DNA of 64,000 bases. It comes from a virus. Shown one piece after another: positions 7,592-63,204 of this stretch. A model generated the notes under the pieces. The model did no database searches and was not told the DNA's origin. It saw nothing but the letters and a program-made list of their open reading frames with translations. Where the stretch lies: positions 1 through 64,000 of IMG/VR virus record IMGVR_UViG_3300018080_000170; one strand, written 5' to 3'. The first letter of the stretch is position 1; the number at the start of each line of letters is the position of its first letter. The position numbers and the translations under genes were made by a program.

Positions 7592-9058
7592 ATGGCAAAT
7601 AACAACCCTTCTTCGTTGACTGGTTTTGGAGCCGATGCTCCCCAGCTTCTCGAAGAGATCACCAAAGCGTTAAGCTTTGCGAATCAAAATTATTCGGATA
7701 CGTTGCCGGGTGATTTTACAGGTGCTCCCGCTCTTCAGGTTGAATCACTCGACAAGACTCTGAGAGTGGTTACCCATGAGCAAAAGCATCTGCTTCTTTG
7801 GAATGATATTCCGAAGACTCCTGCATACAACACGGTTGAGCAGGCCAATACGAATAACAGTTATGGCGCACAGATTCCAGCCTTCTTTCAGATGGCAGGA
7901 GCTCCAGAAACTGCGGATTCTGGCTACGATCGAAATGTGGTGCAGATTAAGTACTTGGGCGTTCAGAAACAGATCAATCATGACGTTATGCTGGTTAGGC
8001 AAGCTCATGGTCCGATCGTTCAAAGAGAGATCAAAAATGGAGCTCTCTGGATTCTGGCACAGCTCGAGCGCGCTCTCTTTTCAGCCGACAGTTCCATCAA
8101 TGGCCTAGAGTTTGATGGTATTGATAAACAGGTTGAGGATAAAGAGGGTCAGGCTGAGTTTAAAGCTCAGGCCTTTGATGGCTACAATGTGCTGAGTGGC
8201 GCAGATACCATCATTCTCGATAAGCGAAATGATCTCCAGAGTGGAGAGGTTTTGGATGAGGAAATCCTCGAAGAGGCCGCTCTCGTTCAGGCGAACAATT
8301 TCGGTATGTGCACGGATATGTACATGGATACGAAAGCTCACAGTGACTTCAGCCGTGCTTTCTATGCTAAGGAGCGCATCAATACGCTCGGTATGGAAGG
8401 AAAAGCTGGTTATGTTGTGAAGCAGTTCGTTTCCGGTTCCGGCACTTTTAATCTTAAGTCTGGTGTGTTCCAGCGACCTCGCCGAATCCCGTTGGCGGCA
8501 GCTGTTTCATCTGAATCAGCTCCTACCCTTCAGGACGCGAATGCTGGTGACAATAGCCCGGCTTCTGGCGATTCTCAGTTTGCGGCCGTTGACGCTGGTC
8601 AGTACCAGTATAAGGCTTCTGCTGTTTATGCTGATGGTGAAACGTTGGCAGGCGGCGCGAAGGCTGTTACTCCGGCAGCTGGCGACAAAGTCGTGCTAGA
8701 TATTCTGCCAGGTTCGAACCCCAGTGGCGTTCAGTATTTCAATATCTTTCGTTCACCAAAAGGTAGCGCGGCTACTTTTGAGTTTATCGGTCGTGTGAAA
8801 CCTGAGAATTTCCACGCTGGTGATGGTGATTTTCGTGATCTGGATATTGATCTTAACGCTGATATGCCAGGTTTGTCTCGCGCTTATCTCATGCAGATGA
8901 ACGAAGACAACCTTGCGTTCAAACAGCTTCTTACTATGATGAAGATCGATCTTGCATTGCTTGGTACGAACTATCGATGGATGCAGCTGCTTTATGGTGC
9001 GCTTCATATGTATACACCTCGCAAGAATTGTATCGTGAAGAACATCGGGCGTTCATAA
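7592..9058 (+). CDS. Major capsid protein (HK97-like fold)
   Basis: A 488-residue protein of the expected size, position and style for a myovirus major capsid protein; it forms the head shell. The N-terminal region (1-60) holds YSDTLPGDFTGAPALQVESL at 34-53, shared with the DUF5661 protein. The core includes a long helix, PIVQREIKNGALWILAQLERALF, typical of the spine helix. Residues about 305-425 look like an inserted Ig or fibronectin-type domain (YQYKASAVYADGE, VQYFNIFRS) that probably projects from the surface. Codon choice is more regular than in flanking small genes, fitting high expression. A strong terminator follows. Confidence 0.85.
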   Translation: MANNNPSSLTGFGADAPQLLEEITKALSFANQNYSDTLPGDFTGAPALQVESLDKTLRVVTHEQKHLLLWNDIPKTPAYNTVEQANTNNSYGAQIPAFFQMAGAPETADSGYDRNVVQIKYLGVQKQINHDVMLVRQAHGPIVQREIKNGALWILAQLERALFSADSSINGLEFDGIDKQVEDKEGQAEFKAQAFDGYNVLSGADTIILDKRNDLQSGEVLDEEILEEAALVQANNFGMCTDMYMDTKAHSDFSRAFYAKERINTLGMEGKAGYVVKQFVSGSGTFNLKSGVFQRPRRIPLAAAVSSESAPTLQDANAGDNSPASGDSQFAAVDAGQYQYKASAVYADGETLAGGAKAVTPAAGDKVVLDILPGSNPSGVQYFNIFRSPKGSAATFEFIGRVKPENFHAGDGDFRDLDIDLNADMPGLSRAYLMQMNEDNLAFKQLLTMMKIDLALLGTNYRWMQLLYGALHMYTPRKNCIVKNIGRS

Positions 9059-9081: not shown

Positions 9082-9092
9082 ATATAAACGGG

Positions 9093-9127
9093 AAGGGGAT
9101 TAGCTTTAGTGGCTGATCCCCTTTTCC
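9093..9127 (+). terminator. Rho-independent terminator of the head operon
   Basis: AAGGGGAT-TAGC pairs with GGCTG-ATCCCCTT around a short loop and runs into TTTTCC. The strong GC-rich stem closes transcription of the protease-to-capsid operon. Confidence 0.75.
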
Positions 9128-11180: not shown

Positions 11181-11423
11181 ATGGACGTCAAAGAAGAAAT
11201 ATATAGGCTACAAAAACGAGTCAATGAATATCATCAAAAGGTCGAACGAATCCTTGGCTATACAAAAGGAGTTCTTTGGTTTGAAACGCCAAATCCGCTT
11301 CTTGGAGGAATCACGCCTCTTGATATGATTAAGATGGGAAGACATGAAAAGCTATTTAAATTTATTGACAACCAAATAGCCGAAGGCGGATGGGAAAAAG
11401 ATGATGCAAAACACAACGATTAG
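11181..11423 (+). CDS. Orphan DUF2384 (MbcA/ParS/Xre toxin-binding) domain protein
   Basis: Residues 32-70 read WFETPNPLLGGITPLDMI followed by G-x-x-E-K-L, the core of the DUF2384 domain of antitoxins that neutralise RES-type toxins. It has 80 residues and lacks the usual N-terminal helix-turn-helix. No RES toxin is next to it. It could be a decoy antitoxin that blocks host RES toxins (inference). It overlaps the next gene by 23 bases. Confidence 0.7.
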   Translation: MDVKEEIYRLQKRVNEYHQKVERILGYTKGVLWFETPNPLLGGITPLDMIKMGRHEKLFKFIDNQIAEGGWEKDDAKHND

Positions 11424-11631
11424 ACAGCACATAAAAAGCTGGAGAGCTGAACAACAGGATAATTATAGGACTGTTTGCTTATGTGGAATGTCAGATTGGA
11501 ATTATGTATGTGATAAGTTTAATTCAGTTTATCACTGTAATAATTGTGGACGAACAACTTGGATTGATTTAAGAACTGGCGGAGTTAGTGTTATTGCTAA
11601 AGGGCTGAAATGGGATCAGATTAAGAAGTAG
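11401..11631 (+). CDS. Zinc-ribbon protein
   Basis: A 76-residue protein with CLCG, later C, and CNNCG, the ligands of a small zinc ribbon (residues about 26-50), then a Trp-containing beta tail. It starts at ATG 11401 or 11404. Its stop overlaps the first base pairs of the structured RNA that follows. Confidence 0.55.
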   Translation: MMQNTTIRQHIKSWRAEQQDNYRTVCLCGMSDWNYVCDKFNSVYHCNNCGRTTWIDLRTGGVSVIAKGLKWDQIKK

Positions 11632-11731
11632 CAACACTTGTCAGGGCCTTCTGCTCAAAAATACAAAGAGCGCAGACCGTCCTTGAGCTGCAAAAATTAC
11701 TAAAACAGGTGGCGTGGACAAGGTAGTTGCT
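11630..11731 (+). ncRNA. Structured intergenic RNA, copy A of a two-member family
   Basis: A basal helix AGCAAC/GTTGCT (11630-11635/11726-11731) supports P1, CTTGTC/GACAAG (11637-11642/11717-11722). Inside lie AGG (11643-11645), hairpin P2 (TCTG..CTC with GAG..CAGA, 11650-11676), CTTGA (11682-11686), hairpin P3 GCTGC/GTGGC (11687-11691/11709-11713) and GTG (11714-11716). The same order and the same AGG, CTTGA and GTG junctions recur at 21650-21737, with base changes that preserve pairing in P1 and P3. It may be a riboswitch, ribozyme, processing site or small RNA; no known class is recognised. Confidence 0.75.
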
Positions 11732-11751
11732 GTATAAAGAAAGTAGGGGAT

Positions 11752-11934
11752 ATGGTGAAAAAGCTACATTGTGATATTTGTGACAAATGCAGGAAAGTAT
11801 TAGATTACAACCAGATAATTAAACCAATTGTGATACGAGGAAGAAAAGGCCCATATCATTATTGTTCCATGAAGTGTTGTCAAGAGCATGAAGAAGAGCG
11901 TAACGAGAATGAGAAGGTCACGTTTGAAGAATAA
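11752..11934 (+). CDS. Small Cys-rich zinc-finger protein
   Basis: 60 residues with CDICDKC near the N-terminus and CSMKCC near residue 38, a likely zinc-binding treble-clef or FCS-like finger. It begins 20 bases after RNA copy A, with AGGGGA as ribosome binding site, so it is the first gene downstream of that RNA. Confidence 0.6.
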   Translation: MVKKLHCDICDKCRKVLDYNQIIKPIVIRGRKGPYHYCSMKCCQEHEEERNENEKVTFEE

Positions 11935-13490: not shown

Positions 13491-13781
13491 ATGAGAGATT
13501 TTATTGAGATTGGTCCCGTTCCGGCTGATGAGCCTTGTGCCCAGGTTGGTGAGGAGAATTATCGTGAGAAGGCTTATAAAGAGTGTGCGCGGTTTATTGA
13601 GCTGATTCGCACTAAACTCGGTCCCGAGCCGAAGAAGGCGCGTTTGGCAATTAAAGCTTTTCCGCATGACTTTGGGACCTATCACGAGGTTGTGTGCTAT
13701 TTTGACACTCACAATTCAGAGTCGGTTGATTATGCATTTCGATGTGAGAGCGATGCACCGACAACATGGGAGGCTGCGTGA
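13491..13781 (+). CDS. Conserved phage protein (EIGPVPADEPCAQVG type)
   Basis: 96 residues. EIGPVPADEPCAQVG, then Y...EC, then FPHDFGTYHEVVCYFD and a final W. These blocks look like a conserved family that recurs in tailed-phage genomes, but no activity is known. AGGAGGGGATGAG provides a strong ribosome binding site. Its TGA overlaps the next GTG. Confidence 0.65.
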   Translation: MRDFIEIGPVPADEPCAQVGEENYREKAYKECARFIELIRTKLGPEPKKARLAIKAFPHDFGTYHEVVCYFDTHNSESVDYAFRCESDAPTTWEAA

Positions 13782-13933
13782 AGAAATATCGATATCGTTT
13801 TGGCGAAGACGATTATTGGACGACTGTTGATAACCCGTGGGATGTTGATCTCAGTTATATGTTCATAGGGGGAGTTTGTATAGTTGAGTGTATCGAGGTG
13901 GACGAAGAGAAGGAGGAGAGTGCTGGCGAGTAG
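13778..13933 (+). CDS. Small hypothetical protein ending inside the tRNA gene
   Basis: A GTG overlapping the previous stop opens 51 codons (VKKYRYRFGEDDYW...). The TAG at 13931-13933 lies within the tRNA, so the last ten bases are shared with the tRNA acceptor stem. It is acidic at the C-terminus. Coupling and composition support it. Confidence 0.55.
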   Translation: MKKYRYRFGEDDYWTTVDNPWDVDLSYMFIGGVCIVECIEVDEEKEESAGE

Positions 13934-13996
13934 TTCAGTTGGTAGAACGCCTGGCTGTTAACCAGGAAGTCGCAGGTTCGAGCCCTGCCTCGCCAG
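13924..13996 (+). tRNA. tRNA-Asn (anticodon GTT)
   Basis: A complete cloverleaf. Acceptor stem TGGCGAG/CTCGCCA is perfect (13924-13930/13989-13995) with discriminator G at 13996. The anticodon stem is CCTGG/CCAGG with loop CTGTTAA and anticodon GTT at 13957-13959. The T arm is GCAGG-TTCGAGC-CCTGC. CCA is not encoded in full (the DNA continues CAG), so host enzymes must add it. It is the only tRNA seen in the window. Confidence 0.95.
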
Positions 13997-14949: not shown

Positions 14950-15422
14950 AAATTAAAAAAGTAGATTGGTATTGCTTCAACCATGAGAAAGTTTATGAGA
15001 AGTTTGAAGGCGATTTGAAGTTTATCAATGAGTTTTGTGTTAGAGGCTGGTATCAGCCTGTTGCTGTTTATCGCAATTCTAATCCCAATCGTGAGAAGAA
15101 TCATAAAGATTATATGCTTCTATTTATGGACTATGAGTATACCTTCTTTGGTCCAGAAGAAGAGGCGCCAAGACGTCTTATTGTATCTGGAATGGATGCA
15201 GATGAAATGGAAAAATATCGCTATCAGGGGGCTGTTCATTGCTTGGAATGTGATACAGTCTTGTATAGTATTAATAGACACCACTACCATACATGTGATT
15301 GTCCGAATAAGGCAATGGTAGATGGTGGAAAAGATTATTTGAAATATGGCTCAAAGAATGGCGCGATTAGAGTTGTTAAGCTTGACCTATTGACTAATAC
15401 GATTGTAGAGGATAAAGAATGA
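14946..15422 (+). CDS. Protein with C-terminal DUF7695-like Cys/His domain
   Basis: GTG start within GTGA, after GGAGGATT. Residues about 95-150 contain VHCLECDTVLYS, HHYHTCDC and VDGGKDYLKYG, the layout of a small DUF7695-type metal-binding domain seen in phage proteins. The N-terminal 90 residues are of unknown fold. It is translationally coupled to the PRPP synthetase gene. Confidence 0.6.
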   Translation: MKIKKVDWYCFNHEKVYEKFEGDLKFINEFCVRGWYQPVAVYRNSNPNREKNHKDYMLLFMDYEYTFFGPEEEAPRRLIVSGMDADEMEKYRYQGAVHCLECDTVLYSINRHHYHTCDCPNKAMVDGGKDYLKYGSKNGAIRVVKLDLLTNTIVEDKE

Positions 15423-16387
15423 GTATTAAAGTTTTCTGTGGAACTGCTTCAATGAGTCTTGCTAGCGACATAGTTGCAGATTTAAGTGTATTACTTGGCC
15501 ATTGTGTTACTTTGGGGGAGATGTCGGGGAAGCGTTTTGATGACAAAGAGCTGTTTGTAAAGGTAGAAGAAAGCGTAAGAGGAGAGGATGTATTCGTTGT
15601 TCAATCTACTAGCTCACCAGCTAACGAAACTTTAATGGAGCTTCTGATTATAATTGATGCCCTAAAGAGAGCCTCGGCTGGCAGGGTAACAGCTGTGATT
15701 CCTTATTTTGGATATGCGCGACAAGATCGCAAAACCTCGCCTCGAACGGCGATTACAGCTAAATTGGTAGCAGATCTAATCACAGTCTCAGGAGCAGATC
15801 GAGTGATCACCATTGATCTTCATTCGCCTCAAATTCAAGGTTTTTTTAACATTCCAGTTGACCACCTTTTGGCCGGTCCGCTTTTTGTTAAGTATATTGA
15901 AGAGCGCTATTCATGGGATGATAAACTTACGATTGTTTCGCCGGATGCCGGAGGAGCAGCGAGAGCTCATACATTTGCTAAATATTTAGGCGTTCCTTTG
16001 GCGGTGATGAGTAAGAGGCGGAATGAACATAATAAAGTCGAGACGATGGAAATTATTGGAGATGTAAAGGGAAGAGATATTTTTATCTTTGATGATATGT
16101 GTGATACAGCTGGAACGCTGCTTATGGCGGCCGATGTGTTGAAAGAAAAAGGGGCGGAGGATGTGAGAGCAGCAGTCACTCATCCGGTGCTTTCTGGGTG
16201 GACGATGGATAGGATAGAACAGTCTGAATCATTAACAGAATTAATTATAACTGATACAATTAAGCTTGAAGAACGAATTGAAGATTCTGATAAGATTCAA
16301 ATCGTTTCGGTGGCCGGGCTATTGGCACAGGCAATTAGATGTATTTATACTGATGACTCAATAGGAGCCTTATATAGCTATAAATAA
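15419..16387 (+). CDS. prs: Ribose-phosphate pyrophosphokinase (PRPP synthetase)
   Basis: It makes PRPP from ribose 5-phosphate and ATP, feeding nucleotide and NAD synthesis. At 322 residues it is full length. Visible signatures are PYFGYARQDRKTSPRTAIT (95-113), DLHSPQIQGFF (133-143), the KRRNEHN flexible loop (199-205) and the PRPP loop DDMCDTAGT (225-233). All key residues appear present, so it should be active. Phages often pair this enzyme with a nicotinamide phosphoribosyltransferase to rebuild NAD; no such partner is in this window. Its start is coupled by ATGA to the previous gene. A structured RNA follows immediately. Confidence 0.95.
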   Translation: MSIKVFCGTASMSLASDIVADLSVLLGHCVTLGEMSGKRFDDKELFVKVEESVRGEDVFVVQSTSSPANETLMELLIIIDALKRASAGRVTAVIPYFGYARQDRKTSPRTAITAKLVADLITVSGADRVITIDLHSPQIQGFFNIPVDHLLAGPLFVKYIEERYSWDDKLTIVSPDAGGAARAHTFAKYLGVPLAVMSKRRNEHNKVETMEIIGDVKGRDIFIFDDMCDTAGTLLMAADVLKEKGAEDVRAAVTHPVLSGWTMDRIEQSESLTELIITDTIKLEERIEDSDKIQIVSVAGLLAQAIRCIYTDDSIGALYSYK

Positions 16388-21602: not shown

Positions 21603-21631
21603 TTTAATTATCTTCGGAAATCCGGTATAAT
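21603..21631 (+). promoter_or_regulatory. Sigma-70-like promoter of the second virion operon
   Basis: TTTAAT at 21603-21608, a 17-base spacer and TATAAT at 21626-21631. Transcription would begin near 21638, so the structured RNA at 21650 lies at the very 5' end of the transcript. Confidence 0.65.
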
Positions 21632-21649
21632 AATAATCGTATATGAGGT

Positions 21650-21737
21650 TCAACTCGTCAGGATCTTACAACACTGAGATTGTAATTATTCTTGAGCCAA
21701 AACAGTAACGCAGTCATAGTTGGCGTGGACGAATTGA
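21650..21737 (+). ncRNA. Structured 5' leader RNA, copy B of a two-member family
   Basis: P1 is TCGTC/GACGA (21655-21659/21728-21732), extended by TCAA/TTGA across one mismatch. AGG (21660-21662) follows, then P2 TTACAA/TTGTAA (21666-21671/21680-21685), CTTGA (21691-21695), P3 GCCAA/TTGGC (21696-21700/21720-21724) and GTG (21725-21727). Order and junctions match copy A at 11630. P1 changes T-A to C-G, and P3 changes several pairs without losing pairing. The position between promoter and first gene suggests a cis-acting leader or a self-processing RNA. No known class recognised. Confidence 0.78.
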
Positions 21738-21764
21738 TACAACAATAAAAAAAAGGAAAAGCCT

Positions 21765-22046
21765 ATGAAACAATTCAAGACCGACAATCTTGCACTATGT
21801 CCTTATTTGGAGATGGAAGGACTTAAGTATTCTCACGCCGAGTGGGGAATGGGAAAAAATAATAAGTCTAAAGTTTATTTTGTTTTTAATGATGAAAAAG
21901 GTACCGGTCGAGATCTAGAAATTAGCTTCAGATTCTCTGACTTTAAGAAGTACAGAGATCTGGGGTTCTTTTATAGAGCGGAGATTGAAAAGCTTCGCCG
22001 TGAGAACAAAGAAGAAGATTTGAAGAAAAATAAAGGGAACAAGTAA
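21765..22046 (+). CDS. DUF5659-like protein
   Basis: 93 residues; FKTDNLALCPYLEMEGLKY fits the DUF5659 pattern (F-x-T-x-D...A...L...G) of small phage proteins of unknown role. First gene after RNA copy B, with AAAAGGAAAAG as binding site. The end overlaps the next start. Confidence 0.6.
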   Translation: MKQFKTDNLALCPYLEMEGLKYSHAEWGMGKNNKSKVYFVFNDEKGTGRDLEISFRFSDFKKYRDLGFFYRAEIEKLRRENKEEDLKKNKGNK

Positions 22047-28023: not shown

Positions 28024-28047
28024 AAGCACCTAGTGCTTTAATTTTTT
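28024..28047 (+). terminator. Weak rho-independent terminator
   Basis: AAGCAC-CTA-GTGCTT is a six-pair hairpin followed by TAATTTTTTC. It separates the 27705 gene from the lysis-type pair and may be leaky. Confidence 0.6.
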
Positions 28048-53736: not shown

Positions 53737-56700
53737 ATGCCCAGAAAGCTTAAAGGCGATCATACTGTAGAACGAGATCTTCGTGTTGAACGAAATATAA
53801 CTCAAGAAAGCGCCGCCAATCCTTTGCGAACGATGAAGGATTTAAGTGGGGCTGTTGATAAAAAGACAATTCGAGAAGTTGTATCTAGCGGAAATTACAA
53901 GTTATATTCTGTCAACGATGACGATTCTACGAATGTTGATAATATACTTGTGGTTAATCTTGAGTCGGGGAATATTGGTATTGGCGTCGTCCCGACTAAT
54001 TCGGGTGGGAATGCCCTGCGAATTGGTCTCACTACTACAGTTAAGGGAAATAGCGAAAAATTAACTGCCTATAACGAAGCAACAGCTGGAACAGCCGATA
54101 CGACTGTTGGCGCTAGATTATTGCTTGATTCTAATTCTGCGAATACTGCAGGCCAATCTACTATCTATTCAGAAGTTAGACGTAGAATGACTGCTAGCAC
54201 TGAAGATACGGCTGGAATTTTATCTGCTCTAGAGTTGAAATCTGTTCTAGATCCGGATGGAGGAGCTGTTACTTATACTCATAGTGATGGGACTATGGGC
54301 GTGGCGGATTTGGTTGCTCATGGTATTCAGAATGTTGGTTCTGGAAGTCTTGCTATTTCTCATGCTGCGGCTCTTTATGTTAAAGCAAATTCGGTTGTTG
54401 GCGCAACCAATAAGTATGGATTGTATATTGGTACAATTGCAGGAAGTACAAATGATTATGCAATTTATACTAATACAGGGAAGGTAAGATTTGGCGAGAC
54501 GGTAGAGATTCAGCAATATCTTGGTGTTGGAAATGCTCCTAGTTCTACTGTCGGAGCTTATATTCAAAATACAGATCTAACGGGAACAGTTCAGACTGGA
54601 ATTCATAGCTCTCCAATTAGTACGGCGGCTGCAACAGTTAGTATGCGCGGAATTGTTTCGGCTCCTCAAACAACAGATGCTGTATTTACTTGTGAAAATT
54701 TGACGGCTTTTATGGCTTTAGACGCGGCTAAAGGAGCATCCTCAACTATAACTCGTCATAGGATGTATTACGCTGCTTCTCCTACTCAGGGGACAAATAA
54801 CGTTTGGGGAACAGACAATCTAACATTCACTGGAGATTACGTTTTTCATTTTACTTCTACCCGTCCAAGTGAATTTGCCGGTAGAGCTGGTTTTGGTGGT
54901 TCGGCTTCAGCAAATGCGATCGTACGAGTTGGTGCAACTAATCCATTGGGGGGTACTATTCAGCGTGGGTTTGCCGCCGAGATGGAGGCGACATCAAATG
55001 CTACTAATGCAGTTGTAGGTGTTCTTGGTAACGTTACGACAGCTGCGGCTTCTTTTACTACTGCTTATCTTGCACAACTTCAAGCATCAGATAGAGCTAA
55101 GGGGTCTGGAAGCACTATTACCAGGAAAATTGGTATTCATGCGCCGATGCAAACTGGCGGAACGAATAACGCAATTCTTGTAGATAATACTTCTTTTGTT
55201 GGTAATTTTGGAATTAATTTAGCTACTATGAGCCCATCTGAGTTTGCTGGACGTATGGGTATTGGTGGTAGTTCTAGTTCTGGAGCAGTTTTACAAATTG
55301 CTGCATCTAATCCAATTACTAGCGTGGAACAAAGTGGGATATTTATTCCTATAGTTGGAAGTTCCGATGCCACAACGGCTATTTTTGGAGTCCAATCATA
55401 TCCGACAACTGCGGATGAGACTTTTACATGTGCGCTTGTTACAGGTTATACATTTTATGACAGAACAAAAGGTGCTGCTTCAACAATTACACGTCACATT
55501 GGATATTATGGAGCTCAACCTACACAGGGCACTTATAATACTTTTATTTCAGATGACGATTCGTTTACTGATGATTATTCAATTTATTTAGTTTCTAGTA
55601 GGCCATCTTATTTGGGCGGCGATCTTAGCATAGATGGTGATTTAAATATTACTGGTGCATTAAACGCCGATGGCGGGATTAACGATACGTCTGGCGATAT
55701 TATTCAGTCTACAGTTGGAAGTTTCTTCTGGAATATTGATTCTAATGATGATAGCTCAGATGAGGTTTTTGAGTGGGCGTCGGATCGAGTAGGGGATTCG
55801 GGTGGTGATATTTTAATGCGCCTAACCGATGAAAATATTTTATATTTGTTTGATTCGGCAAGTAATGGTCCCGCTTCGGGGAATCTTAAAAATTATGCTA
55901 GTTATCAAGCTGGTATTGGAGCCGCAAGCGATTCCGAGTTCGGCTTATTCGCAGGAATTGCTGATGGTGTATTAAGTTTGTCTGGCGACACCGGGTTTGG
56001 CGCCGGTTCAACAAAGTTGAGTATTTTTAGTGGTGGGCATTCTACTCCAAATAAAATGGTTGCCTATATTGATGGTAATGTTTTAGCTCAGTTAGATGCT
56101 ACAGGCTTACAAATAACAAGTGATGGTGATGCACCTCTAAAAGTTATTAGTGGCGATCCTGGGTCAGATTTGCAAGTTACTGATAGCACAATGACTGCTC
56201 ATATTCGAGCATATAATGAACAATTTGCAATTGCTAGTGCAGGGACAAGTCCTATTTATTTTATTTCTGATTATGGCAATGGATCAACTAGCGCCGATTT
56301 TATTTGGAAAACGGACTCTACTACATTAAATACTCCTAATGGCACAGAGTTAATGAGACTCACCGATGGAGGAAATCTTTTAATTGGTATTACAGCTCCC
56401 GATGGGATTGAAGCGCTACACGTTAAAAAGAGTTATAGCGGCGCTGGATCTTTTGAAGCTGCCTATATTGAAGCTATTTCATCTCCAAGCGTGGCACTAA
56501 CTGGTGGGGTTAATGGTTTAATTGTGTATGGGGAGCGTCAGGTCAGTGCGTCCGCAACAGATACTGGACGCGTTCATGCGCTATCGCTTAGAAGTCTTTT
56601 TGATGTAGATTCCGGACAGACATTAAGCTGTTCTAATTCTTCGGCTTCGACTATATATTCAACTTTACATGTTCAGGCTCCAGCTAATACCGGGTCTGGG

Positions 56701-59700
56701 ACAGTTAATCTTGATAAGTTTGCCTATATTTCTATTAGTAGCAATACTCATCTTGATACTGGAACAGATAAGTATGCTATATATATAGATCAGATTTGGG
56801 GCGCAACTAATAACTGGGGTATTTATCAGACGTACGGTGGAAACAATAACTATTTTGCTGGCCCTATCCGAGCCGGAACAACTGGCGGGATTACAGATGC
56901 CGATGAACAAGTAACTGTTTATCGCGAGTATGATGCAGATAGTCTTAACCCCGTAGGATTAGGGGTCAGGCTTGTTTTAGATAGATCATCTGCTTATACT
57001 ATTGCTAATTCGCGCGGTGCTGAAATTGAAGTTCAAAGAAGTTATGGTTCTAACACAATTTCAGAAGGTCATGATTTATTTGGAAGCGCATTTAGGGCTC
57101 TTTTTAATGGTAGCGGCTCATATACAAATACTTCAAATGTTATGGTTATCCGTACTATTTCGCCGTCTTTTTCAGGCGGCGGAACAGTTAGTTTGAATTC
57201 TTATATGGGCATGTTTATTTGTGACGTGAGTACTTCTAACGCAACAAATCAGTTTGGTTTATATATCGGTAATCAAACAGGTGGCTCTTCTCAAAATTAT
57301 GCTATTTATACTAATGATGGCGCGGTTCGTTTTGGTGAGCAAGTTACTGTCGAAGATAATCTTGGTCGCGGACTAACTATTAAAAATCCAAATGCTAATA
57401 GTCAAGCCCGAATTAATATGTATGCGTCTGGGGATACTAAATCTTGGTGGCTTGGGAGAATCACTGGCGCAGAGGGAATGTTTGGAATTCAATATGCAAA
57501 CGGCCTCAATAGTAGCGCACAACTTCAATTAAGAAACAATGCCGATGATGCAATTGATGCGCAAGCTGGAACTGGTAGATTTGCGGCCGGTGGCCCTACC
57601 ATTCAAGATACGGATCGTTGGATTATGCTTGGTTTAACCGACACTAGTCAGACAGTTCTTACTGGCACTTCTCAAGTTGGCACGAGAATGGCTTTTCGCG
57701 CCAATAGTAATGCAACGACTATGATTACCGGAGCCGTTATTGACGCTAAAAGCGATGACGCTTCTTTCGCTACAACCGATATTGTAATGTTGGATGTAGG
57801 CTCATTTACTTTAGGTGCTGGACATACTTGTACAGATATTATTAGTTTACTCGTGAGGCCTCAGCCGATTGATGATGCTACTAATTCGGCTTATATTTCA
57901 ACCACAACTGCATTAGAATCGGGTGATTGGTTTATTCATTCGACTTCAATTCGTCCGAGTTGGTTGTCTGCACCATTGAGAGTTAATCCAGCTACCTCAG
58001 CTCAAGTTTCAGGAACAAATAATACTCTTCTTGAAATTATTCGTTCATATACAGGTGCTGCTGGGAATTCGCATATTGCGGCTTTTATTGAAAATGATTT
58101 AACAACAAACGCTTCTCTTACTGCCACTCAAACAACTTTAGAAGTTAAACATAGCCGAACTGTAACGGATGATGTTTCGGAGGCGACTGGAGTCGGACTC
58201 GGTTATGCGGCTAATCTTTTGGTTGGGTCGGATTTTGATGTTGCAGCTACAAAGACATATTCATATACTGATTCTGGTGGCTATAATGAAATTTCAATCG
58301 CCACTTTAAATGAGTTAGGGGCCGGAACAACTGCTATTTCAAATTATGTTAAGTTACGTATTAAATCCGATACTGGCTCAAACAGTACTAATAAGTATGG
58401 AATTTTGATTGATGATATTTCTGGCGCTAGTAATTTAAATTACGCTATTCGAACTAGTGCTGGCCAAGTATATCATGCGGATAATACAGGTATAGGTGCT
58501 TATCCCGACCCCGATATGGCATTGAGAATTGGATGGTCTGGAAATGCGACCGATATTAATCAATATGGTATTTATGTTGGAACAGAAGCAAATTCAAATG
58601 CTACTACTTCGTTGTCAGGGATTGCAATTCTTCCTACAACGGATAATGCGGCGTTTACATGCGCAAGAGTTTTTAATGTTAGAGCTTTAGCTGCCCAAGC
58701 TGGAGCCGGTAGTACAATTCAATATGCTATTAGTTATAATTCGCAGACACAAACCGTTGGAAGCGTTGGAAATGCAGTTCTTGCTGACAATTATAGTTTT
58801 AGCGGCGATTACGGTATTAATCTAAACACCACTCGTCAGAATTATTTTGGTGGCCCGATTAGAGTTAATGATGACAACGGTGTTATTAATACTACTGAAA
58901 TGCTAAGTGTAACAAGAAATTACAATGGAAATGCAGCAGATTCTCATACCGCCGTTACTCTAAATTGGGATTTAGATACCGACGATGCTCTTACAGGTGG
59001 CCAAAGTTGCGTTCTTTATTCTCGTTGGAAAAGAACTATTGATGCTAATGTAACAGATGCGCCTGCTGGGGGCTTTGGCGCAATTCAGAATATGCAAATT
59101 TCTCGTATTTATGATGTTGATGCAGCCGCCACGTATACTTTAACAGATGCGGATGGAATGGCTGCAATTAGAATTCCTAGTGTTTCACTTTCGGGCGGCG
59201 GTACATTAGCTGTTTCACAGATGTACGGAATTTACATTCATGCTGATAGTATTGCAACTGGAATTAATAAGTATGGTTTGAGAATTGGTGGGATGACGGG
59301 CGCAACTAATAACTACGCTATTTATACTGGGATAGGACTCGTTCATTTTGGCGGTGATGTTGAAATTGATGGCGGAGAATTGTTAGTTGGAGATGGAACT
59401 GGTCTTTCTACGATGAGTATTCCCGACACAGCTGGAGGAGCTCCATATCTTGGAGTTAAAGAATCATCTCAGCCAGTTTATACGTCTATTGCGCACCAAG
59501 ATGGGACTTACAATAAGAGAATTGGATTATTTGCCAACAGCGACACGGGGAATGTTGGCGTTGTTTATGGCTCTTCTTCAGATATTCCAACATTTAAGAT
59601 TGTAAGTGATTGGAACGATGCTACTCAATTGTCAATTAATGGCAATACAAATCAAATTACAATTCCTTCAGGCGATGTTGATATTACTAGGACCGATGAT

Positions 59701-62700
59701 GGAAGCGCTATGGGCTTGGTTATTGAGAATACTGGGAGTGATAATGCGAATACCCAGGCCAGAGTGCGATGTACAGTTAATGAAGATGCTGCTCGTTCAT
59801 ATATGGCTATTACCAGAAGCGGATCTTCGACATATGATGTTAGTTGGAATTGGGTATTAGCTACTAATTCAAAAACAATGTATTTGGCTAGAGATGGCTT
59901 GTCTACTAACATTGCAATGTCTATTGACGCAAGTCAGAATGTTGAAATTCCTCAAATTTTAGGTGTTGGCGGAACTTCTGGTTCTGGTTCTATTGTGCGA
60001 GTTGGACAAAATAATCCGCTTAGTGGTACCTCACAATATGGCGTAACAATTGAACACGCTGCAACATCTGCCGCCACTACTTCAGCTATTGGCGTTTTTG
60101 GATCCGTAACAACAGCTAATGCTTCTTTTACTTGTGGAATTCTCCGAAATTTCTTTTCAAATAATCCTACACTTGGAGCTGCAAGCACCGTTACCCGTAG
60201 GATTGGCTACGGCGGAATAATGCCAACAGGCGGAACGAACAACGCATTTATAAGTGACAATATATCGTTCACTAGCGATTGGGGAATTAATCTATCAACA
60301 TCTAATCCGTCTAGGATTAATGGAGATTTAAGACTTAATACTGCATCTGCTATAATTGGCGGATATAATAAATTAACAGTATATGGCGATTATGGCGCAG
60401 GATCAGAAGGGCATAGTAGTCAGGCTATTGGAGCCGAAGGATTGTTTGATTCAGATAGCCCTTATACTGTAAATTCAAATTCTGGTATTTATGGGCAACT
60501 TAGAAGAAATATTACAACGAGTGTAACTGATACTGGTGGTTATTTTGGCGCGTTAACAGCTAGACTAGCATTTAATGTTGCTTCGGCTCAAACATATACT
60601 AACGCGCAGAGTCCTGGATTTGCTTCCGTTATGATTAACTCACCGCAGAACTATGGATCAGGAACTCTTGCCATTACACATTTTGCCGGCCTTTGGGTTA
60701 ACAGTTCGTCTCTTGCCACAGGTAGTTATAAGTACGGAATATATGTGGGAAGTCAATCCGGGGCTTCGAATAACTACGCTATCTATACAAATAATGGAGA
60801 TGTCAGATTCGGAGACGATGCTGAAGTAGTTGGAAAAATGGGTGTTGGTGGAGCTGCTTCGTCTAATGCAATTCTTAGAACAGGTTACGCCAATCCTCTT
60901 ACAGGAACTAACCAGCGCGGTTTTGCTGCCGAAATGGAAGCAACATCAAATGCTACTACGCATGTTGTAGGTTATCTTGGTAATGTTACAACTGAGGCCG
61001 CTTCTTTTACAACTCCCTATCTTGCGCAATTTCAAGCATCAGATAGAGGTAAAGGATCTGGAAGCACTATTACTAGGAAGATGGCATTTTATGCTCAAGA
61101 GCAAACTGGCGGAACTAATAATGCTATTATAGCTGACAATCTCACATTTTCTGGAGATTATTGTTTGCATTTCACCAATACGAATCCTAGCCATATTTAT
61201 GGTAGAATCGGAATTGGTGGGTCAGCTCATGTTGATACTGCATTGGCGATTCAAAGACCTAGTAATATAGCGGCTGCAAATGAATATGCAGTATTTGTTG
61301 ATTATGTTGGTAGTTCTTCTGCTACAACAAGCATTCGAGGCTATACTTCGCAAGTTACAACTGCTGCAGCTTCATATACCTGTAGCATTTTAACTCATTT
61401 TGGTGCCTATGATATTACTAAGGGTGCCGGCTCAACAATTACTCGTCAGCGTCAATATTGGGGACAGCCACCTGAGCAAGGGACAAATAATGCTTGGGCG
61501 ACCGATAATGCCACATTTACTGGAGATTGGCATTTGCATTTTACTAATGATCGTTGGTCGTTACTTCCTAAGTTGCAATTGAGCGCGACAGAAACTTCTG
61601 ATGCGAATGCAAGATTGTTTGTTAAGAATGGCGATGACGGCCTTGCAGTAGCGGATAGTGTTGGAGCTGCTCGACAAGTTATTCTTGAAAGTAATACAGG
61701 GAATTTTGTTGCATTTAGGCGTCCAGATAGCAATTATAGCGGATTTATTTTTAATGAAGGAACCGACGGAGACGCCGCTCAATTAAGACATCGCTGGACG
61801 GGTACTGCTTCTACTAGTGGATATGAATTTAGAACTAATAATGCTCAATTGTTTAGAATTGCTGCTGATGGTTCCATTTACATGGGCTTTGATGGATCGA
61901 GTGCGGCTAGCTATCTATATGGAGATCGGTTTAATCTTATTTCCAACGGGACTGAAGGATTTCAGCTTGATATCCGAGGCGGCGATACTTCAAATGCTGC
62001 TAACATTAGTAGAATCGATATGAGAGGTTATCGAGCCGATGCGGGTGGCCGTAGTGTTCAAATTGAAGCTTTTTATGGCTCATCTGGAACAAACCGCCAG
62101 ATTGGTGAAATTTCCTTTAATAATACGACGACTGATCCTACAACTACCGGCGGCGAGCTTGAGATGTTGTTGCACAATACAAGCTCGCTCGGAACTGTTC
62201 TTAAGATGACTGCAAGTTCAAGTAGTATGATTTTTGATCTTACAAGCCGCGAGACGTTGATTCAATATAGTTCGTCAAGTGGCGTATATATGCATCTTGA
62301 AAATCAATATGCCGTTTCGTCTACGGGAGCGTATGCACAATTCTTGATTGAAACGAATAATGATAATGCCGATCCTTATGTTAATTGGCGTATTAATGAT
62401 GGCTCGACAGTTAACTGGTCAGCCGGTATTGAGAATGGCGTAAATAATAGATTTAAAATTTGCCCAGCTTCGGGTCTTGGAACTGATCTTGGATTAACAA
62501 TTGGAACTACAGGGACAGCGGTTCTGCGTAGAAACGAGACAGCTTCGTTAGCTGGTGTTCTTGATTTGACTAATACGAATGCAACATCTGTAGCGAATGG
62601 TATTGGGATGAGGTTCCAGGCTCATAGCACAGATGATGTGGTTCGTACAATGGGCGAGATTTATTGTGTTAAGGAGCAGGTATGGACCAGCACTTCAACT

Positions 62701-63204
62701 ACAAGAGATGCACAGCTCCGATTTTATACTAGTTTGAACGGAACAACCGGCGGGGCGGGGCAGGAAGCTCTTATTCTTGATAGCGCTAAGGAAGTCTATT
62801 TCCCGAATATTTCAACTACGGGCTCTGCTGCGAATGCATTTTTGGATAGTGGAAATAGTAATCAGCTTTTGAGATCGACTTCATCAGCTCGATATAAGAT
62901 GAACATCGAAGATATGAATATCGATAGTTCAAAAATCTTTAGTTTAAGACCTGTTGAGTTTGATGATCGTAACCGCGGGACACATCACTTTGGTCTTGTC
63001 GCTGAAGAAGTTGCAGAGATTCTTCCTGAATTAGTTCAATTTGCTCCTGAGAAGTGTTTAATTCCAGATAGCGATTCGGATAAGAAAGTTCCTGATGGAG
63101 TTCAATATCAGTTGCTTAGCGTACTTCTGTTGAATGAAGTCAAGAAACTCAATAAAGAAATTGAAAAAATTAAATCAGAAAAAGATACAAATAGGAGTAA
63201 CTAA
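53737..63204 (+). CDS. Giant tail fibre with C-terminal S74 self-cleaving chaperone
   Basis: 3155 residues, the largest product here. The N-terminal attachment motif (KLKGDHTVERDL) is followed by a very long repetitive beta-rich shaft. Two repeat types recur: a NKYGLYIG...NYAIYTN-x-G-x-VRFG block (about five copies) and a block with GGxxSSNA...NPLxGTxQRGF ... TGGTNN ... SGDY. The last 107 residues are an endosialidase-type intramolecular chaperone (peptidase S74): S3049 and K3054 in S-S-A-R-Y-K match its Ser-Lys spacing, and FGLVAEEVAEILPELV is typical. The chaperone trimerises the fibre and is then released. No enzyme domain was recognised in the shaft. Confidence 0.85.
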   Translation: MPRKLKGDHTVERDLRVERNITQESAANPLRTMKDLSGAVDKKTIREVVSSGNYKLYSVNDDDSTNVDNILVVNLESGNIGIGVVPTNSGGNALRIGLTTTVKGNSEKLTAYNEATAGTADTTVGARLLLDSNSANTAGQSTIYSEVRRRMTASTEDTAGILSALELKSVLDPDGGAVTYTHSDGTMGVADLVAHGIQNVGSGSLAISHAAALYVKANSVVGATNKYGLYIGTIAGSTNDYAIYTNTGKVRFGETVEIQQYLGVGNAPSSTVGAYIQNTDLTGTVQTGIHSSPISTAAATVSMRGIVSAPQTTDAVFTCENLTAFMALDAAKGASSTITRHRMYYAASPTQGTNNVWGTDNLTFTGDYVFHFTSTRPSEFAGRAGFGGSASANAIVRVGATNPLGGTIQRGFAAEMEATSNATNAVVGVLGNVTTAAASFTTAYLAQLQASDRAKGSGSTITRKIGIHAPMQTGGTNNAILVDNTSFVGNFGINLATMSPSEFAGRMGIGGSSSSGAVLQIAASNPITSVEQSGIFIPIVGSSDATTAIFGVQSYPTTADETFTCALVTGYTFYDRTKGAASTITRHIGYYGAQPTQGTYNTFISDDDSFTDDYSIYLVSSRPSYLGGDLSIDGDLNITGALNADGGINDTSGDIIQSTVGSFFWNIDSNDDSSDEVFEWASDRVGDSGGDILMRLTDENILYLFDSASNGPASGNLKNYASYQAGIGAASDSEFGLFAGIADGVLSLSGDTGFGAGSTKLSIFSGGHSTPNKMVAYIDGNVLAQLDATGLQITSDGDAPLKVISGDPGSDLQVTDSTMTAHIRAYNEQFAIASAGTSPIYFISDYGNGSTSADFIWKTDSTTLNTPNGTELMRLTDGGNLLIGITAPDGIEALHVKKSYSGAGSFEAAYIEAISSPSVALTGGVNGLIVYGERQVSASATDTGRVHALSLRSLFDVDSGQTLSCSNSSASTIYSTLHVQAPANTGSGTVNLDKFAYISISSNTHLDTGTDKYAIYIDQIWGATNNWGIYQTYGGNNNYFAGPIRAGTTGGITDADEQVTVYREYDADSLNPVGLGVRLVLDRSSAYTIANSRGAEIEVQRSYGSNTISEGHDLFGSAFRALFNGSGSYTNTSNVMVIRTISPSFSGGGTVSLNSYMGMFICDVSTSNATNQFGLYIGNQTGGSSQNYAIYTNDGAVRFGEQVTVEDNLGRGLTIKNPNANSQARINMYASGDTKSWWLGRITGAEGMFGIQYANGLNSSAQLQLRNNADDAIDAQAGTGRFAAGGPTIQDTDRWIMLGLTDTSQTVLTGTSQVGTRMAFRANSNATTMITGAVIDAKSDDASFATTDIVMLDVGSFTLGAGHTCTDIISLLVRPQPIDDATNSAYISTTTALESGDWFIHSTSIRPSWLSAPLRVNPATSAQVSGTNNTLLEIIRSYTGAAGNSHIAAFIENDLTTNASLTATQTTLEVKHSRTVTDDVSEATGVGLGYAANLLVGSDFDVAATKTYSYTDSGGYNEISIATLNELGAGTTAISNYVKLRIKSDTGSNSTNKYGILIDDISGASNLNYAIRTSAGQVYHADNTGIGAYPDPDMALRIGWSGNATDINQYGIYVGTEANSNATTSLSGIAILPTTDNAAFTCARVFNVRALAAQAGAGSTIQYAISYNSQTQTVGSVGNAVLADNYSFSGDYGINLNTTRQNYFGGPIRVNDDNGVINTTEMLSVTRNYNGNAADSHTAVTLNWDLDTDDALTGGQSCVLYSRWKRTIDANVTDAPAGGFGAIQNMQISRIYDVDAAATYTLTDADGMAAIRIPSVSLSGGGTLAVSQMYGIYIHADSIATGINKYGLRIGGMTGATNNYAIYTGIGLVHFGGDVEIDGGELLVGDGTGLSTMSIPDTAGGAPYLGVKESSQPVYTSIAHQDGTYNKRIGLFANSDTGNVGVVYGSSSDIPTFKIVSDWNDATQLSINGNTNQITIPSGDVDITRTDDGSAMGLVIENTGSDNANTQARVRCTVNEDAARSYMAITRSGSSTYDVSWNWVLATNSKTMYLARDGLSTNIAMSIDASQNVEIPQILGVGGTSGSGSIVRVGQNNPLSGTSQYGVTIEHAATSAATTSAIGVFGSVTTANASFTCGILRNFFSNNPTLGAASTVTRRIGYGGIMPTGGTNNAFISDNISFTSDWGINLSTSNPSRINGDLRLNTASAIIGGYNKLTVYGDYGAGSEGHSSQAIGAEGLFDSDSPYTVNSNSGIYGQLRRNITTSVTDTGGYFGALTARLAFNVASAQTYTNAQSPGFASVMINSPQNYGSGTLAITHFAGLWVNSSSLATGSYKYGIYVGSQSGASNNYAIYTNNGDVRFGDDAEVVGKMGVGGAASSNAILRTGYANPLTGTNQRGFAAEMEATSNATTHVVGYLGNVTTEAASFTTPYLAQFQASDRGKGSGSTITRKMAFYAQEQTGGTNNAIIADNLTFSGDYCLHFTNTNPSHIYGRIGIGGSAHVDTALAIQRPSNIAAANEYAVFVDYVGSSSATTSIRGYTSQVTTAAASYTCSILTHFGAYDITKGAGSTITRQRQYWGQPPEQGTNNAWATDNATFTGDWHLHFTNDRWSLLPKLQLSATETSDANARLFVKNGDDGLAVADSVGAARQVILESNTGNFVAFRRPDSNYSGFIFNEGTDGDAAQLRHRWTGTASTSGYEFRTNNAQLFRIAADGSIYMGFDGSSAASYLYGDRFNLISNGTEGFQLDIRGGDTSNAANISRIDMRGYRADAGGRSVQIEAFYGSSGTNRQIGEISFNNTTTDPTTTGGELEMLLHNTSSLGTVLKMTASSSSMIFDLTSRETLIQYSSSSGVYMHLENQYAVSSTGAYAQFLIETNNDNADPYVNWRINDGSTVNWSAGIENGVNNRFKICPASGLGTDLGLTIGTTGTAVLRRNETASLAGVLDLTNTNATSVANGIGMRFQAHSTDDVVRTMGEIYCVKEQVWTSTSTTRDAQLRFYTSLNGTTGGAGQEALILDSAKEVYFPNISTTGSAANAFLDSGNSNQLLRSTSSARYKMNIEDMNIDSSKIFSLRPVEFDDRNRGTHHFGLVAEEVAEILPELVQFAPEKCLIPDSDSDKKVPDGVQYQLLSVLLLNEVKKLNKEIEKIKSEKDTNRSN

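Follow-up and report, generated by a model that had tools for sequence, protein, structure and literature searches.

The window analysed here, a stretch of 64,000 nucleotides, makes up most of a 70.4-kb virus record and was found to carry an SPO1-like major capsid gene at positions 7592-9058 (PHROG major head protein). The capsid protein shares about 31% amino-acid identity with those of SPO1-type phages, and the phage group of the window is nearly unknown. A strong terminator-like hairpin (GGGGATTAGC..GCTGATCCCCTTTT) is present 3' of the capsid gene at 9092-9125. Between the capsid and tail genes lies a block of small accessory genes, among them a putative ribose-phosphate pyrophosphokinase-like gene (15419-16387), judged by sequence, and one open frame of 3155 amino acids extends over 53737-63204.

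Two copies of a structured RNA element, A and B, are described here, with the features of both loci being listed in Table 1. Copy A is positioned between two tightly packed genes, with the end of its P1 helix 13 nt 5' of an AGGGG motif and 20 nt 5' of the ATG of the 60-aa gene. Copy B lies directly 5' of a gene, as had been proposed in a preliminary description of this DNA; the end of its P1 is 15 nt 5' of AAGGA and 27 nt 5' of the ATG of the 93-aa gene. The Shine-Dalgarno sites of both loci are outside the fold. The 93-aa ORF has 97% amino-acid identity with its counterpart in a sister phage, and the gene order past it leads to virion proteins. No firm family assignment was obtained for either downstream gene (60 or 93 aa), and no relative of them was found among known phages.

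A promoter had also been proposed 5' of copy B and is plausible. Its TATAAT is conserved in the sister phage, as is TCCGGTATAATAWTAATCGT at the same site, but the -35 box is weak, the putative promoter scores under the threshold of the promoter scan and that scan gave none of comparable quality just 5' of copy A. The leader following copy A (11726-11749, GTTGCTGTATAAAGAAAGTAGGGG) shows no change in the sister phage, with the surrounding region being only 74% identical. About 6.3 kb 3' of copy B, in a 385-nt gap, a terminator-like hairpin with a T tract was observed at 28024-28038.

Table 1. Features of the copy A and copy B loci (positions within the window).
Feature	Position	Strand	Basis or remark
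ORF, 76 aa, zinc-ribbon-like cysteine pairs	11401..11631	+	stop codon overlaps 5' end of copy A P1
Copy A, whole three-way-junction RNA, 13-bp P1	11630..11731	+	covariance model R2, 83.2 bits, E 2.2e-20
Copy A P2	11643..11683	+	P2a, CU/CC loop and P2b; RNAalifold, A/A2 comparison
Copy A P2a AGGGC/GUCCU	11643-11647/11679-11683	+
Copy A P2b UCUGC/GCAGA	11650-11654/11672-11676	+
Copy A P3 GCUGC-17 nt-GUGGC	11687..11713	+	RNAalifold, A/A2 comparison
ORF, 60 aa, cysteine-rich, 3' of copy A	11752..11934	+	weak VATC treble-clef similarity, below curated cut-off
Putative promoter	21603..21631	+	weak -35 TTTAAT, 17 nt, TATAAT (21626-21631)
Copy B, whole three-way-junction RNA	21650..21737	+	covariance model R2, 81.0 bits, E 8.9e-20; sister orthologue
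Copy B P1 5' strand UCAA-c-UC-GUC	21650..21659	+	partner 21728-21737; B2 minimum-energy fold
Copy B P2a 5' strand AGGAU	21660..21664	+	partner 21688-21692 AUUCU; RNAalifold
Copy B P2b hairpin UACAA-8 nt-UUGUA	21667..21684	+	4/5 pairs compensatory over four sequences
Copy B P2a 3' strand AUUCU	21688..21692	+	RNAalifold
Copy B J2/3 UGA	21693..21695	+	same in 4/4 sequences
Copy B P3 hairpin GCCAA-19 nt-UUGGC	21696..21724	+	compensatory pairs
Copy B J3/1 GUG	21725..21727	+	GUU in orthologue B2
Copy B P1 3' strand GAC-GA-a-UUGA	21728..21737	+	B2 minimum-energy fold; RNAalifold
Shine-Dalgarno AAGGA and start codon ATG 3' of copy B	21753..21767	+	outside fold
ORF, 93 aa, 3' of copy B	21765..22046	+	weak DUF5659 similarity, below curated cut-off

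Fold and covariation of the two copies

The preliminary description had reported helices P1, P2 and P3 in the same order in A and B, and the sequences are as it gave them, with all three helices able to pair. The window contains exactly two occurrences of a 3' half motif, CTTGAGC-N15..40-GGCGTGGAC, where 0.01 would be expected. The helix boundaries, however, differ from those first given, as P1 is longer (13 bp with bulged purines in A, 9 bp with one mismatch in B) and as AGG and CTTGA, taken to be conserved unpaired junctions, for the most part pair with each other (AGG with CTT) to form P2a. Of the junctions only J2/3 UGA and J3/1 GUG (GUU in B2) are unpaired. The fold consists in order of P1, P2a (AGGRY/RYYCU) without any intervening J1/2 (0 nt), a small internal loop, P2b, UGA, P3 and GUG, and its invariant unpaired core is limited to UGA/GU and the CU internal loop.

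Pattern and DNA searches identified a sister phage, represented by two IMG/VR contigs of 113.6 and 90.7 kb, of which the capsid protein is 93% identical to that of the window. Each contig has exactly one copy-A and one copy-B orthologue (A2 and B2, identical between the two contigs) in the same order and orientation as in the window, and both loci are syntenic in the two phages. The number of distinct element sequences known is therefore four (A, A2, B and B2), from two phages. DNA identity between window and sister is 74% around copy A and 86% around copy B (650 nt surroundings), compared with approximately 91% between copy B and B2 themselves (8 differences in 88 nt).

The unconstrained minimum-energy folds of A2 and B2 are the three-way junction; A and B are able to adopt it, although their own minimum-energy predictions differ from it. 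Copy B alone has a folding energy no better than that of its shuffles (z -0.85), and so the case for structure rests on comparison. Between A and A2 there are 14 substitutions within 28 pairs and all 28 pairs are kept, an outcome reached by random placement of the 14 substitutions in 15 of 200,000 trials. RNAalifold, when applied to the four unaltered sequences, returned exactly the 20 modelled pairs, eight of them changed on both sides. In the four-sequence alignment 97.5% of cells are paired (34-58% in slid controls); pair counts from alignment A5, which contains the unaltered sequences, lean towards the modelled structure since it was fitted to the model. The covariation score of 0.567 was reached by none of 500 shuffles, and the observed energy of -19.4 kcal/mol, against a mean of -2.9 kcal/mol for column shuffles (z about -8), by none of 1000. 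A hold-out covariance model (R3) built from A and A2 only, with two bases removed from the loop of A, recovered copy B at E = 2.2e-6 and B2 at 9e-6, the next unrelated match being at 0.28. Building R1 and R2 required two adjustments to keep the aligner in register, namely trimming of the long P2b loops in A and A2 and removal of a single base from B and from B2.

On this comparative evidence the three-way-junction structure is well supported, and it is the shape of the fold rather than its exact letters that is conserved in the sister phage. The original claim that the two copies form a family of structured RNAs in which helices have changed in a compensatory manner is borne out by these orthologues and by four-sequence covariation far above controls. 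The view that A and B did not arise by a recent duplication is also supported. Structured RNA with real compensatory evolution is found here twice in a nearly unknown phage group, and the case shows that sister-phage orthologues can establish an RNA structure from very few sequences. A kissing contact between L2 and L3 (ACUG/CAGU in B) was considered and rejected, being absent from A.

The strand on which the element functions can also be addressed from the alignment. Six of its cells are G-U pairs and only one is C-A, with 78 of 80 cells paired on the + strand and 73 of 80 on the - strand. As G-U pairs become A-C mismatches on the opposite strand, the gene-sense strand is the functional one, and RNA of this strand is under selection.

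Distribution of the element

The preliminary description had matched the element to no known family and this still holds, there being no matching family among the 4227 covered by the Rfam search. At the gathering threshold, the Rfam 15 scan detected only a tRNA-Asn in the window (13924-13996); near the elements, a loose threshold gave chance matches (E 0.55, outside the fold, and E 1.5, on the other strand), and the sister loci gave nothing at E <= 1. The element is a new structured RNA without an Rfam entry, although its general kind is known.

Pattern scans with relaxed criteria, covering 2.9 million viral contigs and 85,000 genomes (five scans of the viral contigs and one of the genome contigs, filtered by covariance model or inspection of pairing), revealed no further member. 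Beyond the sister contigs, matches among viral contigs were found in about the number expected by chance and had their helices missing. The genome-contig scan yielded 111 stretches, the best of which (L117, from Pseudomonas, 32.7 bits) is inside a 934-aa gene and was rejected. A weak BLAST match was discarded as falling in a helix-turn-helix-like coding stretch. Searching for distant relatives by their capsid added 78 loci. The covariance-model search suggested at the outset, applied to the whole records of 50 distant capsid relatives and, with R2, to all 78 loci, found no member outside the lineage; a match at L179 overlaps ORFs and is without the helices.

The element is thus apparently restricted to one phage lineage. 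The family may be wider, as letter patterns are blind to relatives in which all helices have changed and as the capsid search of IMG/VR left a gap from 93 to 46% identity, the nearest non-sister relative being a 46% identical contig.

Candidate roles of the element

Judged by position and conservation, the element is best read as an mRNA leader that acts in cis and is specific to the lineage. Compensatory change has preserved the fold at two loci in two phages, always 5' of a gene and on its strand, and this is most simply explained by a cis-acting element. Unlike the structure, the function of both copies is something that we infer, and it is an even call whether A and B represent a single cis-acting mRNA element, present at two sites, that is read by a factor in trans and regulates both downstream messages. 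Each copy would then be transcribed together with the gene behind it; the RNA folds into P1, P2 (P2a, CU/CC loop and P2b), UGA, P3 and GUG. A factor acting in trans, most likely a protein that the phage encodes or recruits, would recognise the invariant UGA/GU(G) junction and the CU internal loop and would thereby set the translation or survival of the two messages together in a small two-site post-transcriptional regulon. Such a regulon would have a structured site before the start codons of at least two genes in one phage, and this arrangement was found at two loci in two phages. The element is probably a binding site for such a factor, likely of the phage, and both copies are candidate sites. 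Given that the searches beyond the lineage gave no member and that neither copy is followed by a recognised metabolic gene, a factor of the phage or of the host machinery would be a likelier reader than a general metabolite. Against a trans-acting reader, both downstream genes are tiny, the element is found in two phages only and no switch that hides the Shine-Dalgarno site was seen. The CCUU of P2a was considered as an anti-Shine-Dalgarno switch and was not adopted, since the best partner of the Shine-Dalgarno differs between the copies and is weak in B; neither a consistent partner nor a switch between exclusive folds was seen for the two copies.

Phage translational operators have been reviewed, among them the T4 gene 32 pseudoknot and the RegA sites (PMC3014915). 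Like the element, these are located in phage mRNA before start codons, and several messages can be recognised by a single factor. The RegA sites lack structure and lie on the start codon or immediately 5' of it, and in gene 32 the operator takes the form of a pseudoknot, whereas the element is a three-way junction 5' of a free Shine-Dalgarno and a candidate site only. If the copies do form a shared binding site, they would expose a post-transcriptional regulon of two genes, and the transcript, used as bait, would offer a way to the protein that reads it.

Five other explanations were ranked below a cis-acting element read by a factor. An mRNA processing or stability element, in which the fold would mark or shield the 5' end (B) or an intercistronic cleavage site (A) and so set the message levels of the neighbouring genes, is unlikely; the tight packing of the genes around copy A, the start of its P1 in the upstream stop codon and the likely transcription start near copy B are all compatible with it, but such elements seldom require invariant junction letters and an identical topology at two loci. 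The conserved junctions had been regarded as a hallmark of riboswitches or ribozymes, yet no observation made here points to ligand binding or cleavage, and confinement to a single phage lineage is evidence against a widespread class of either. A riboswitch class has a conserved aptamer which is usually widespread before related metabolic genes. Here the instances number four, all from one lineage, neither copy has a recognised metabolic gene 3' of it, the invariant core is small and no expression platform is visible, and a small-molecule riboswitch of unknown class is accordingly rated as quite improbable in spite of its agreement with the three-way junction, the invariant junction letters and the gene-proximal 5' position. 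Phage-borne candidates are on record, namely manA and wcaG of cyanophages (PMC2864571), which resemble the element as structured leaders; the element differs from them in having no Rfam match and no metabolic gene recognised downstream. A broader proposal, that of a new phage-borne class of ligand-sensing or catalytic three-way-junction RNA present twice per genome, with a wider family missed by letter-based searches, appears rather improbable.

That one compact, self-contained fold occurs twice, at unrelated genes, would suit a separate small RNA, or a decoy RNA, produced from the two loci and acting in trans. No terminator-like site lies between either element and the next start codon, however, and the Shine-Dalgarno spacing suggests a leader, which leaves this reading more doubtful than the riboswitch. 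It is very unlikely that the element is a put-like or EAR-like antiterminator acting on RNA polymerase. Phage HK022 likewise has two similar cis RNAs of about 70 nt, putL and putR, one of them just 3' of an early promoter (PMC9378689), and a terminator-like hairpin is present 3' of copy B; but put comprises two stem-loops arranged as a V and lacks a closing P1, whereas a P1 of 9-13 bp is conserved in the element, and copy A is inside an operon with no good promoter nearby. Lowest in rank is a self-cleaving ribozyme, which we consider highly improbable. Three-way junctions with invariant letters are known in ribozymes, and to that extent the fold is in its favour; the element has few such unpaired letters (UGA, GU, CU) and no Rfam ribozyme match. 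The hammerhead core (CUGANGA - stem II - GAAA - stem III - cleavage triplet) is not that of the element, with its junctions of 0 nt, UGA and GUG. The pRNA of phi29 is also a phage RNA with a three-way junction, but it is encoded once, close to the end of the genome, and does not serve as an mRNA leader, and the element had no match to the pRNA family among the Rfam families searched.

Comparison with the sister phage, which also possesses the tRNA-Asn, showed a further conserved stretch at 13738-13935. It covers the end of an ORF (13491-13781), the intergenic region and the 5' part of the tRNA gene, and is 91% identical between the two phages, with neighbouring stretches at 75-82%; it is possible that it represents a leader or promoter of the tRNA-Asn.
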